From NCBI RefSeq assembly GCF_900108505.1, contig NZ_FNWU01000001.1, positions 558,001 to 622,000 on the forward strand: 64,000 nucleotides of DNA, read 5' to 3'. The DNA comes from Halopenitus malekzadehii (GTDB lineage Archaea > Halobacteriota > Halobacteria > Halobacteriales > Haloferacaceae). A model generated the notes under the pieces. The model had not been told where the DNA came from. It was given only the letters and a program-made list of their open reading frames with translations, and did no database searches. Numbering within the stretch: the stretch's first letter is position 1; every line of letters starts with the position of its first letter. A program made the position numbers and the translations under genes. Shown here in pieces: positions 37,550-46,173 of this stretch.

Positions 37550-38260
37550 ATGGCGAACGTCTCGCTTCCCCACGACGCGAAGGCCGGGCCGACGAAACCC
37601 GAGGTTCGGGCCGTCCTGTTGTCGAAACTCGACCTCGACCGGTCCGATCACTTCGTGGAGGTCGGATCTTGTACCGGCGCGGTCACGATCGAGGCGGCCT
37701 GCCGGGCCGGTCGCGTGACCGCGATCGAACGGAAACCCGATCGACTGACCGTGACCGAGCGCAACCTCGCGGCCAACGGGATCGGCGTCGACGACGGTTC
37801 CGGGCTCGCAGCGGCGGATCCGACGGATTCAGTGGATCCGGCGTCTCCGGTGGCCCCGGCGGATCCGGGGAGTTCCACGGACGGCGGTCGTGGCTCGGCC
37901 ACGGTCACCCTCCGGGAGGCTGAAGCGCCCGCGGGGCTCCCCGACGATGCCGACGCGCTGTTCCTCGGCGGGAGCCGCAACTACGAGGCGGTGCTCGACC
38001 ACGCCGCCGCGACCGGCGTCGATCGCGTGGTGATGAACGTCTCCCGACTGGAGGTCGCCGGCGCCGCGACCGAGGCGTTCCGCGATCGCGATCTCCTCGA
38101 GGACGTCGTGCAGTTCCAGGTCAGCCACGGCTACGAGCTGGCCGGCGCGACGAGCTTCGACTCGGACAATCCGGTGTATATGCTCGTCGGCGGCGTCGAC
38201 GAGGAGGACGACGATACGGCGTCCGTCGAGGATGCTGACCGCGCGGAGGCTGCCCGATGA
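37550..38260 (+). CDS. cbiT: Cobalt-precorrin-6B C15-methyltransferase (decarboxylating)
   Basis: 236-residue SAM methyltransferase that methylates C15 and removes the acetate at C12. The SAM site is FVEVGSCTGAVTIEAA, with AIERKP after it; GSRNYEAVLDHA and VVMNVSRLE follow. Between Rossmann strands 3 and 4 there is a low-complexity Pro/Asp/Ser insert of about 45 residues (AAADPTDSVDPASPVAPADP and beyond) that is absent from typical CbiT, so the protein is longer than the usual 190 residues. ATG 37550 is chosen because it lies 24 nt after operator A. The stop overlaps cbiL (ATGA). Confidence 0.9.
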   Translation: MANVSLPHDAKAGPTKPEVRAVLLSKLDLDRSDHFVEVGSCTGAVTIEAACRAGRVTAIERKPDRLTVTERNLAANGIGVDDGSGLAAADPTDSVDPASPVAPADPGSSTDGGRGSATVTLREAEAPAGLPDDADALFLGGSRNYEAVLDHAAATGVDRVVMNVSRLEVAGAATEAFRDRDLLEDVVQFQVSHGYELAGATSFDSDNPVYMLVGGVDEEDDDTASVEDADRAEAAR

Positions 38261-42303: not shown

Positions 42304-43413
42304 ATGAGCACGAACGACACCACCGAGACGACGGAATCGAACGCGACGACCACCGAGACGAACGCTGCCGCCGAAACGACCGACGCGGCCGACGCGAACG
42401 CCGTCACCACCGACTCGGCCGAATCGGACGCTGCTGAGGCGACCGACGAAAACACCATCACCACCGACACGACGGCGTCCGCGTCGAGTTCCGCCTGCGG
42501 CGCCGGAGGGTCGACGGACGACTCGGCGACAGATGGGAGTTCGGCTCGCAGCTGTGGCGGCTCCGAAACGGACGCCGCGGCGGCCAAGAAGGCCGCGACC
42601 GACGAGCAGGTCGGATCGACCGCCGCCGACTTCGCGGCCGACCCCGGCCGCCTCGTCGCGGTCGGGCTCGGGCCGGGTCAACCGGACGGGATGACCGCGC
42701 GCGCTCGCGCGGCCCTCGCCGACGTCGATCACATCGTGGGGTACACGACCTACGTCGAGCTGCTGCCCGAGGAGATCACCGACTCGACCGAGGAAATCTA
42801 CGACACGCCGATGTGCGGGGAGGTCTCCCGCACCGAGGAGGCGATCGACCGGGCGCTGGCGGGCAACGACGTCGCGATCATCGGCAGCGGCGATCCGAAC
42901 GTCTACGCGCTCTCGGGGCTGGCGCTGGAGATCCTCGAGTCGAAGGATGCGACCGCCGAGGCCGTCGATTTCGAGGTCGTTCCCGGAGTGCCCGCCGCCC
43001 AGTCCTGTGGCGCCCGTCTGGGCGCGCCGCTCGTCAACGACACCGTCAGCGTCTCCCTCTCGGACCACCTCACACCGATGGACGAGATCGAGTCCCGACT
43101 CCACGCGGTCGCACCCGAGGGGTTCACGATCGCGATCTACAACCCCTGGAGCCGCAAGCGCCGCGAGAACTTCGAAACGTGTTGTGAGATCCTGCTCGAG
43201 CACCGCGCTCCCGAGACGCCGGTCGGGATCGTCCACGCGGCGGGTCGGGAGGACGAACGCGTCGAGATCGTCGATCTCGGCGAGCTTGCGGACCTCGGCG
43301 AGACCGACCTGATAGACATGACGACCACGATCCTGGTCGGCAACGAGGAGACATACGTCTGGGACGACCGGATGGTGACGCCGCGGGGGTACGAGTCCAA
43401 GTATGACTACTGA
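42304..43413 (+). CDS. cbiH: Precorrin-3B C17-methyltransferase paralogue 2
   Basis: 369 residues. A long acidic N-terminal extension (about 115 residues), rich in Thr/Ala/Glu, includes a small Cys/Ser cluster (SSSACGAGGSTDDS and SARSCGGSE). The core then shows AVGLGPGQPDGMTARARAAL, GYTTYVELLPEEI, CGEVSRTEEAIDRAL, IGSGDPNVYALSGLALE, VPGVPAAQSCGARLGAPL and IAIYNPWSRKRRENFETCC. The last segment (YNPxSKxR) is the CobJ/CbiH hallmark. Haloarchaea commonly carry two cbiH genes (recollection), and they may have split the C17 and ring-contraction roles. The stop overlaps the ferredoxin gene by 11 bases. Confidence 0.9.
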   Translation: MSTNDTTETTESNATTTETNAAAETTDAADANAVTTDSAESDAAEATDENTITTDTTASASSSACGAGGSTDDSATDGSSARSCGGSETDAAAAKKAATDEQVGSTAADFAADPGRLVAVGLGPGQPDGMTARARAALADVDHIVGYTTYVELLPEEITDSTEEIYDTPMCGEVSRTEEAIDRALAGNDVAIIGSGDPNVYALSGLALEILESKDATAEAVDFEVVPGVPAAQSCGARLGAPLVNDTVSVSLSDHLTPMDEIESRLHAVAPEGFTIAIYNPWSRKRRENFETCCEILLEHRAPETPVGIVHAAGREDERVEIVDLGELADLGETDLIDMTTTILVGNEETYVWDDRMVTPRGYESKYDY

Positions 43414-43705
43414 CTCCGCCCACGGTGACGGGGCCTACCGGGTGACCCTCGACCGGGACGCCTGTGAGGGCGTCTTCGCCTGCCTCGTTCGCGACGAGCG
43501 GTTTCGGGAGGCCGCGGATGGACTGGCGACGATCGACGATGGAGGGGCTGACCACGCTGGCGCGCCATCGGCGGGAGGATCCGGTGATTCAGACACCCTC
43601 GTCGCCCGGTTCGACGACGACCGGATCGCGGAGGCGCAGCAGGCGGCCGCGGCCTGTCCGGTGGACGCGATCGCGATCGATCTGGAGGTGGCTCCCGATG
43701 AGTGA
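43403..43705 (+). CDS. Small ferredoxin of the cbi operon
   Basis: 100 residues. The motif DACEGVFACLVRDERF gives C-x5-C near residue 21, and ACPVDAIAID gives the CP motif near residue 84, as in single-cluster 3Fe-4S or 4Fe-4S ferredoxins with a reduced cysteine set. A Gly/Ser/Asp-rich loop separates the two halves. It overlaps cbiH2 and the next gene, so it is tightly coupled. It may deliver electrons to CbiH or another step of cobalamin synthesis (inference). Confidence 0.8.
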   Translation: MTTDSAHGDGAYRVTLDRDACEGVFACLVRDERFREAADGLATIDDGGADHAGAPSAGGSGDSDTLVARFDDDRIAEAQQAAAACPVDAIAIDLEVAPDE

Positions 43706-44420
43706 TGCGGCCCCGAACCACGAGACCGGGATCGAGCCCGCGGCCGACCTGCTCGATGCGACCCCGGAAACGGCGTACTTCTGGGGCCGCGTGGCGGGCG
43801 ACGGCGAGGTGACGGCGGACGGCGTCACGACCCGTGCCGGCGACGAGACGGCCGCCGAGGCGCTCGCGGCGATCGCGGGCACGAGCCGGACCGGGACCGA
43901 CCACCGGGTCGAAGCCCGCGAGTCGGCACACGACGCCTCGATCGTCCGGTTCGAGGACGAGTACGAGATCCAGGTGATCGGCGCGCCGGCCGAGCGCGCG
44001 AGCGCGGCCTTCGGCCTCCCGATCGACGGCCAGCCGGGGGGCTACCGGTTCGACGCGTTTTCGGACCACCGCGCACGACTGATCCGGGGGCTGCTCGAGG
44101 CCTGCGGGACGGTCTGCTTCCGGGAGTCGGCCGGCTCCGTCGGCGTCTCGTTCGTCCACGAGGACCGTGCGCTGCTCGACACGATCCGCTCGCAGCTGTC
44201 TGCGGCCACGCCCCACGTTCCGACCGACGACCTCGCCGAGACGTCGTCGGGCGGCTACTGGTTCGGGCTCGCGGACGACGCCGACGTTGCCACGTTCGCC
44301 GAGTGGGTCTACGCCGGCAGCGCGGCGTCCGGCCTCTACGCGGACGACCGCCGGGCGAAGCTCCGGCGGAGCGTCGAGCGAGCGACCGGCGCCGACGTGG
44401 GCACGCTGGAGGGCGAGTGA
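43698..44420 (+). CDS. LAGLIDADG-fold protein embedded in the cbi operon
   Basis: 240 residues. Two half-domains each carry a LAGLIDADG-like motif: FWGRVAGDG (residues 28-36) and IRGLLEACG (129-137), followed by the family's C-terminal SGLYADDRRAKLRRSV, which resembles the end of homing endonucleases. In motif 1 the catalytic Asp (D35) is kept; in motif 2 it is Cys (C136). It starts inside the ferredoxin stop and its own stop overlaps the cbiX ATG, so it is a free-standing, translationally coupled gene and not an intein or intron. A domesticated role (regulation or DNA binding) seems more likely than homing. Confidence 0.72.
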   Translation: MSDAAPNHETGIEPAADLLDATPETAYFWGRVAGDGEVTADGVTTRAGDETAAEALAAIAGTSRTGTDHRVEARESAHDASIVRFEDEYEIQVIGAPAERASAAFGLPIDGQPGGYRFDAFSDHRARLIRGLLEACGTVCFRESAGSVGVSFVHEDRALLDTIRSQLSAATPHVPTDDLAETSSGGYWFGLADDADVATFAEWVYAGSAASGLYADDRRAKLRRSVERATGADVGTLEGE

Positions 44421-45685
44421 TGGCGGGAGCGGAACCGCCGGTGACGGCGGACGCGGAATCGCCGGCGAGGGCGGACGCGGTTCCGACCACGCTTGACGAC
44501 GAGGCGGTGCTGTTGGTCGGCCACGGCTCCCGCCGTGAGCGGTCGAACGAGCAGGTTCGCGAGCTGGCGGCCGGGCTCGAGGACCGCCTCGGGATCCCGG
44601 TCGACGCCGGGTTCATCGAGCTGGCGTCACCCTCGATCGACGAGGCGATCGCCGGGCTCGCGACGTCGGTCTCGCGGGTCACCGTCGTCCAGCTCTCGCT
44701 GTTTGCCGCCAGCCACGTGAAGGCGGACGTCCCGCTCGCGGTTCAAGAGGCTCGGTCGGTACACCCCGAGCTCACGATCCACAACGGCTCGCATCTGGGG
44801 ATCCATCCGGCCATCATCGACCTGCTCGAGGACCGGGCGGCGGCCGTCGAGGCCGAGTTGGACGTTGACCGGGAGGCGGGCGACGTCGCCGTCGTGCTCT
44901 GTGCCCGGGGGTCGAGCGACCCGGACGCCAACGGCGACGTCCACAAGCTCGCCCGGCTGCTCCACGAGGGGCGCGCGTTCGACCGCGTCGCGGCGTCGTT
45001 CATCGGCGTTACGGAGCCGCGGCTCGCGGAGACGCTCCACCGGATCGCCACCGACCGGCCGGACGCCGTGGTCGTGCTCCCGTATATGCTCGGCGACGGC
45101 GTCCTGACGGAACGGATCCGCGAGGGAGCCGCGACCTTCGATGCGGAGTACCCCTACGTCGACGCCGCGGCGGGGGATCCGCTCGGAACCGACGACCGAC
45201 TGCTCGACGTCCTCGGTGATCGCTGGCAGGAGGCCCGGACCGACAGCGTCGAGATGTCCTGTGACACCTGCACGTACAAGGTCGAACTGGACGGCTACGA
45301 GGAGGACGTCGGCGGAGCCAGGGCGATGTTGCGCGCGCTCACCCACCGCGAGTCGCACGCCGACCGCGACGACGTCGACGACGAGCCCCATACTCACGAC
45401 GCGCCGGCCCACCACGTGGCCGTCTGCACGAATCGGACCTGCGCGGCGGACGGTTCCGCGACAGTTCTCGAGCGGCTGCGGCAGGCCGCCCGGGACTCCG
45501 AGGCCTGCGACGCGCGCATCACGCGATCGTCGTGTCTCGGTCGCTGTGGCGACGGGCCGATGGTGGCCGTCTCCCCCGACGGCGTCTGGTACGGCGACGT
45601 CGACGAGGCCGACGCCGAACGCATCGTCTCGTCCCATCTCGACCGCGGCCGGATCGTCTCCGACCTCGTCGACGTCACGCTGTGA
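44420..45685 (+). CDS. cbiX: Sirohydrochlorin cobaltochelatase CbiX with 2Fe-2S domain
   Basis: 421 residues. Two CbiX half-domains: LLVGHGSRRERSNEQVRELA with the first His, IELASPSIDEAI, and a second block ending LPYMLGDGVLTERIREG (about 20-260). A Cys pair MSCDTCTYK follows, then an acidic His-rich linker (DDEPHTHDAPAHH) and a C-terminal thioredoxin-like 2Fe-2S ferredoxin domain: VCTNRTCAADGS, SCLGRCGDGPMVAV (about 345-420). The fusion suggests metal sensing or redox control of the chelatase. It inserts Co into sirohydrochlorin at the start of the anaerobic pathway. Start at ATG 44420 overlaps the previous stop. Confidence 0.9.
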   Translation: MAGAEPPVTADAESPARADAVPTTLDDEAVLLVGHGSRRERSNEQVRELAAGLEDRLGIPVDAGFIELASPSIDEAIAGLATSVSRVTVVQLSLFAASHVKADVPLAVQEARSVHPELTIHNGSHLGIHPAIIDLLEDRAAAVEAELDVDREAGDVAVVLCARGSSDPDANGDVHKLARLLHEGRAFDRVAASFIGVTEPRLAETLHRIATDRPDAVVVLPYMLGDGVLTERIREGAATFDAEYPYVDAAAGDPLGTDDRLLDVLGDRWQEARTDSVEMSCDTCTYKVELDGYEEDVGGARAMLRALTHRESHADRDDVDDEPHTHDAPAHHVAVCTNRTCAADGSATVLERLRQAARDSEACDARITRSSCLGRCGDGPMVAVSPDGVWYGDVDEADAERIVSSHLDRGRIVSDLVDVTL

Positions 45686-45801: not shown

Positions 45802-46173
45802 ATGAGCTGCCACGAACTCGAAGCGCTCCGACTCGCGCTGTTGAACGTCCTCGGAACCGGGGATCGAACCGCCCGCGAACACGCCGAGGCCGAACTCGAG
45901 GGTCACCTCGAGGGGCCGATCGAGGCGCTCGCGAACGCCGAGACGCTCGACGCGATCGAGCGTCACCTCGACGCCGCGCTCGTCGACCTGGAGGCCGAGG
46001 TCGCCGCGACCGATCCGGACGACCCCGAATACGACTACCTCCGCGGTCGTCTGGTCGCCGTCCGCGACGCCGAACGCGCGGTGCATCGCCTGACCGCGCA
46101 GGGCGAGAGCGTCCTCGACGGGCTCGCGGACGCCCACGACGTGCTCCACGAGACGTTCCCGGTCGAGGAGTGA
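45802..46173 (+). CDS. DUF3209 protein of the cobalamin cluster
   Basis: 123 residues, almost all helical, beginning MSCHELEALRLALLN and continuing with a repetitive Glu/Ala helix pair and an ending DVLHETFPVEE. This is DUF3209, known from haloarchaeal cobalamin loci. The CH pair at its start could bind a metal. It follows cbiX after 116 bases and is likely the last gene of the operon or has its own promoter. Its function is unknown. Confidence 0.82.
   Translation: MSCHELEALRLALLNVLGTGDRTAREHAEAELEGHLEGPIEALANAETLDAIERHLDAALVDLEAEVAATDPDDPEYDYLRGRLVAVRDAERAVHRLTAQGESVLDGLADAHDVLHETFPVEE

Follow-up and report, generated by a model that had tools for sequence, protein, structure and literature searches.

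A LAGLIDADG-fold protein fixed within the haloarchaeal cobalt-early cobalamin operon, with a possible role in cobalt handling beside CbiX

The known roles of LAGLIDADG proteins are those of selfish nuclease, maturase and, in rare cases, DNA-binding regulator. The window analyzed here, a stretch of 64,000 nucleotides from Halopenitus malekzadehii, carries the gene of a free-standing member within a cobalamin operon; we call it LAGcob (LAGLIDADG-fold cobalamin-cluster protein), and the operon order is cbiT-cbiL-cbiF-cbiG-cbiH1-cbiH2-ferredoxin-LAGcob-cbiX-DUF3209. The features of the locus are as follows.

37550 to 38260, plus strand: cbiT, from tblastn relationships; order as annotated in locus L196
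38257 to 39156, plus strand: cbiL, from tblastn relationships; order as annotated in L196
39153 to 40082, plus strand: cbiF, from tblastn relationships; order as annotated in L196
40108 to 41184, plus strand: cbiG, from the CbiG profile; order as annotated in L196
41186 to 42295, plus strand: cbiH1, a CbiH paralogue, from tblastn relationships; order as in L196 (PMC8305020)
42304 to 43413, plus strand: cbiH2, from tblastn relationships and locus synteny; order as in L196
43403 to 43705, plus strand: ferredoxin, Pfam Fer4_15 (4Fe-4S single cluster domain); slot as HVO_B0056
43698 to 44420, plus strand: LAGcob, 240 aa; slot as Haloferax volcanii HVO_B0055
43779 to 43805, plus strand: first LAGLIDADG-like motif, FWGRVAGDG, residues 28-36; the catalytic-Asp position D35 varies across the family
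44082 to 44108, plus strand: second LAGLIDADG-like motif, IRGLLEACG, residues 129-137; C136 at the catalytic-acid position
44115 to 44117, plus strand: C140 codon of LAGcob, Cys in 133 of 133 sequences
44420 to 45685, plus strand: cbiX, long form, a CbiX cobaltochelatase with an MSCDTC motif and a C-terminal thioredoxin-like [2Fe-2S] domain, without a His-rich tail
45802 to 46173, plus strand: DUF3209 protein, helical; slot as HVO_B0053; predicted fold matches Thermus TTHB059 (2ehw)

The frame is as the preliminary description had it, with both motifs present and both junctions overlapping: the ferredoxin stop and the LAGcob ATG share 8 nt (ATGAGTGA, 43698-43705), and the LAGcob TGA (44418-44420) overlaps the cbiX ATG (44420). 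A Haladaptatus halobius plasmid is annotated with an operon order identical to that of the window, and an annotated Halorubrum lacusprofundi plasmid carries the second half of the same order. The LAGcob frame exceeds chance, as its relatives, its CbiG-linked distribution and its AlphaFold2 LAGLIDADG model attest. In the same operon, CbiH2 bears a Ser/Asp/Cys-rich N-terminal extension (window 42304-43413; L062:11354-12430), which contains repeated CGASSSDDSSASN units in L062.

Pfam and NCBIfam scans of the window's LAGcob protein alone returned nothing useful, and DBP5 matches from a sequence-profile search of solved structures were attributable to chance. The AlphaFold2 model, built with 29 homologues, reached a pLDDT of 83.5 and a pTM of 0.84, and displays two copies of an alpha-beta-beta-alpha-beta-beta-alpha unit in a single chain, complete with the LAGLIDADG helices. 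Its top Foldseek matches were all LAGLIDADG proteins, namely I-Tsp061I (E 8.5e-6), I-DmoI, the TliVMA intein and WhiA, and VIA-align superposed the model (residues 21-233) on I-Tsp061I with a Z of 13.7 over 180 residues at 3.3 A, on I-DmoI with a Z of 13.6 and on WhiA with a Z of 11.6. Weaker sequence-level matches agree with these full-length structural ones: PF14528 matches 8 of the 29 members, at best with an E of 7.4e-4, which lies under the curated cut-off, and hhalign pairs LAGcob with LAGLIDADG repeats of related haloarchaea (P 4.5e-4, probability 33%), placing C136 on the catalytic Asp column. We thus predict with good confidence that LAGcob adopts a full two-lobed LAGLIDADG fold, which bears out the fold first proposed from the motifs. 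Seven LAGLIDADG_3 matches occur in the window's genome, and those listed (C20 and C27, outside the cbi cluster) lie inside very long frames and are inteins by appearance.

We surveyed the distribution of the family among 292 genomes of the class and a 393-genome sample of the phylum. The LAGcob profile matched 145 of the 292 and CbiG_N matched 150 of the same genomes; all 145 carriers possess CbiG, so that LAGcob occurs in 145 of 150 CbiG genomes and in none of the 142 without CbiG. The phylum sample yielded 40 matches, all within the same order and none elsewhere, and 28 relatives on named contigs share 52-88% identity over the alignment. The exact order cbiH2, ferredoxin, LAGcob, cbiX, DUF3209 was recovered in 132 of 152 loci, and the LAGcob core begins directly after the ferredoxin stop in 138 of 139. 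The window's genome has a single copy, searches of phages and of viral contigs found no relatives, and the synteny is fixed rather than scattered over varied loci. Collectively, these observations strongly support LAGcob as a dedicated and fixed component of the cobalt-early B12 cluster in haloarchaea, and its fixation inside the cbi operon, with no mobile copies found, was upheld. Two arrangements stand apart in detail. The most divergent member (31% identity) comes from a metagenome-assembled genome (G021; L066, L067), where it lies on a contig other than that of the cbi cluster, whose other genes include ferredoxin; in G014 (L068, L069), cbi genes occupy two chromosomal places, and a second, diverged CbiG-like match stands beside the LAGcob cluster.

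Among 133 distinct LAGcob sequences, R130, G131, E134, G137, C140, G149, S151, F189, Y205, R218 and K221 are invariant, and H78 is kept in 132. At the base of the second LAGLIDADG helix, C136 and C140 are spaced as a CX3C pair. D35 and C136, the two positions singled out in the preliminary description, differ in conservation: C136 is near-invariant (Cys in 131 of 133), and residue 35 is not, with D in 67, S in 43, N, A and G in 7 each and E in one. The catalytic acid that a homing endonuclease carries in each motif is therefore not maintained, and because Asp stands at position 35 in only 67 of 133 sequences and Cys at position 136 in 131, the alignment strongly supports a nuclease-dead state throughout the family, in line with the earlier view that homing-type cleavage was unlikely. 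C136 is replaced by Ala or Thr in two genomes (C136A in L051 of G065, C136T in L194 of G173), and H154 by Ala in ten. The gene is broken into two frames in L192 (G183); in G016 (L065), the tblastn alignment runs uninterrupted despite a 'TGA inside' flag. LAGcob resembles the single-chain archaeal homing endonucleases I-Tsp061I and I-DmoI in its two-lobe fold, free-standing form and similar size, but differs from them in that its catalytic acids are lost or not conserved, its operon position is fixed and no mobile copies were found.

The family is not entirely without record. HVO_B0052, B0053, B0055 and B0056 of Haloferax volcanii have no assigned function in an earlier listing of cobalamin-cluster genes, which puts them forward for the CbiD and CbiJ gaps (PMC8305020). 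HVO_B0055 and its relatives occupy the slot between ferredoxin and cbiX; LAGcob lies in that slot and co-occurs with the pathway, and the two presumably belong to the same orthologous family, matched by gene order. NCBI names some LAGcob members 'cobalamin biosynthesis protein'. The earlier remark that a cobalamin role for such a protein appeared undescribed thus holds in part: the family presumably stands on record as HVO_B0055 (PMC8305020), and we found no report in the open-access literature of its fold or of a LAGLIDADG protein in B12 synthesis. Compared with the HVO_B0055 record, which gives neither fold nor mechanism, the present analysis adds the fold, the conserved residues and an exchange with His-tailed CbiX.

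This exchange emerged from the five CbiG genomes without LAGcob (G001, G007, G128, G268 and G052). Four of them (G001, G007, G128 and G268) have what we call type-B clusters, in which cbiH2 is followed by cbiX and the ferredoxin, LAGcob, DUF3209 and the CbiX Fe-S domain are all missing; their loci (L060, L061, L063 and L064) contain divergent genes and a short His-tailed CbiX, and L060 also has an ABC transporter ATPase, possibly for cobalt (CbiO-like), beside cbiT. The fifth, G052 (L062), reads cbiH2, ferredoxin, short CbiX, long CbiX, DUF3209, with the His-tailed second CbiX in the exact slot of LAGcob. All five LAGcob-less clusters encode a His-rich CbiX tail with 10-12 His per 30 residues, compared with none of 141 LAGcob clusters, where CbiX has at most 7 His per 30 residues; the Fisher p of 2e-9 for this exchange exaggerates the strength of the evidence, since the rows are related and some loci belong to the same species. 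A His-rich signal in some ferredoxin frames was discarded as out-of-gene translation. In the CbiH2 tree, G001, G007 and G268 group together as a clade, G128 sits on a long branch and G052 is nested inside the LAGcob clade. From this topology, the exchange appears to comprise only two or three independent events, since it offers one type-B clade, the long-branch G128 and the nested G052, and the nested position of G052 makes its lack of LAGcob a secondary loss. G052 is also the cleanest case: only LAGcob is missing there, and no other cluster isolates it, because the type-B clusters additionally lack ferredoxin, the CbiX Fe-S domain and DUF3209.

As the few clusters without LAGcob encode a CbiX extended by a long metal-binding tail, cobalt supply is the likeliest function of LAGcob, and we tentatively regard the protein as a cobalt-handling partner of CbiX. 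It would perform the job of the His-rich CbiX tail found in clusters without it, either by holding Co(II) and presenting the metal to CbiX or by keeping CbiX in a metal-accepting form. We infer metal binding at a putative C136/C140/H78 site, and transfer from it to CbiX. Located at the base of the two LAGLIDADG helices, the site would occupy the place of the ancestral catalytic Mg; with the catalytic acid replaced by Cys (C136), the invariant C140 added and H78 kept, its preference may have shifted from hard to borderline metals. The fuller version, in which a homing-endonuclease fold turned cobalt metallochaperone, its catalytic Mg site converted into a thiol Co(II) site that loads the class II chelatase CbiX, is possible but doubtful. 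Two comparisons bear on such supply: for the class I chelatase, CobW has been named as the cobalt chaperone, and CbiX-L of B. megaterium combines an Fe-S centre with a His-rich region for which metal storage and delivery were proposed (PMC7689651). Both resemble LAGcob in their proposed cobalt supply to a B12 chelatase through thiol or His ligands; unlike CobW, LAGcob has a different fold and no GTPase, and its metal binding is putative.

Several points count against the cobalt reading. The main counterpoint is Thermus: T. thermophilus pairs a long CbiX with DUF3209 but has no LAGcob and no His tail. Deletion of the B. megaterium CbiX tail left cobalt insertion unaffected (PMC7689651). The exchange events are few, as noted above, only G052 isolates LAGcob, and two of the conserved positions vary, C136 to Ala or Thr in two genomes and H154 to Ala in ten. 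If the metallochaperone version is true, we know of no earlier protein dedicated to cobalt delivery in the cobalt-early B12 pathway, and the LAGLIDADG fold would gain a role outside nucleic acids. A member locked into a metabolic operon and exchanged for a metal-binding tail would carry the fold into metal handling and provide this pathway with a supply protein comparable to CobW. Haloferax volcanii is a genetic model, and the cobalt claim is directly testable in it.

The preliminary description had instead pointed to WhiA, and by that analogy the LAGLIDADG saddle would still bind DNA and control cbi expression, the Cys pair possibly serving as a redox or cobalt sensor. WhiA (DUF199) is likewise a nuclease-dead LAGLIDADG fold that its host retains at one fixed locus; LAGcob shares its fold (Z 11.6) and that of DNA-binding homing endonucleases, is encoded inside the very operon that a regulator would control, and has conserved Cys that could sense redox or metal. 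However, it lacks the C-terminal HTH of WhiA, with the LAGLIDADG domain filling the protein (15-238) and no Pfam HTH match, and it has paired Cys in place of a basic recognition surface. Its K+R content is 8.9%, compared with 11.7% in haloarchaeal intein LAGLIDADG repeats, a crude measure, and the second-lobe strand invariants, placed by homology, are small or Cys (T138, C140, G149, S151), with no basic set. A regulator would also leave the exchange with His-tailed CbiX, which points to cobalt handling, unexplained, and the hint of a WhiA-like regulator is accordingly not sustained; we consider it unlikely.

Protection against oxygen or redox stress was weighed as another explanation, in which LAGcob, ferredoxin, the CbiX [2Fe-2S] domain and DUF3209 would together allow the oxygen-sensitive cobalt-early pathway to run in aerobes. 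Heme-copper oxidase is missing in only four of the 292 genomes (G001, G007, G093 and G128), of which all but G128 keep cytochrome bd; these oxidase-less genomes presumably resemble anaerobic sulfur-respiring haloarchaea. The three among them with CbiG (G001, G007 and G128) all lack LAGcob and DUF3209, the latter genome-wide, compared with 2 of 147 oxidase-bearing CbiG genomes without LAGcob, and aerobic Thermus also has the long CbiX with DUF3209. Yet those two genomes, G268 and G052, do have the oxidase; the oxidase-less genomes represent one genus and one other lineage and may reflect a single history; and the signal follows the module as a whole, with no particular tie to LAGcob. An oxygen link was rejected as the main explanation on account of these two genomes and this lack of specificity, and we hold it to be quite unlikely. 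In G268, DUF3209 gave one sub-threshold match.

A structural subunit or substrate-channelling scaffold, joining CbiX to CbiH2 and ferredoxin with no metal binding, would suit the strict adjacency of LAGcob, the overlap of its reading frame with both neighbors and the strong conservation of its non-catalytic residues. It explains neither the His-rich tail exchange nor the invariant Cys, and the interaction itself is putative; this reading is very unlikely.

That LAGcob is an enzyme standing in for CbiD (C1 methylation) or CbiJ (reduction) in haloarchaea is highly improbable. In favor of this reading, neither CbiD nor CbiJ was found above cut-off in the 292 genomes, and LAGcob is a near-obligate cluster member. 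Against it, the five genomes without LAGcob are among those 292, and type-B clusters thus lack it along with CbiD and CbiJ, their fetched loci additionally lacking the ferredoxin, DUF3209 and beta-propeller genes. To our knowledge, the LAGLIDADG fold also offers no site for SAM or NAD(P)H. PF01888 and PF02571 have no match in LAGcob and none in the window's own genome. For the unassigned cluster genes, four in number, such gap-filling had been proposed in general terms (PMC8305020); because clusters exist without those genes and without CbiD or CbiJ, the four probably do not encode the missing enzymes, unless type B closes the gaps by another route, and this published open question is narrowed. 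DUF3209 adjoins the long CbiX both in haloarchaea (window 45802-46173) and on Thermus pTT27 (L197:6102-6464), and its conserved residues are Cys3, His27, His55, His112 and His116.
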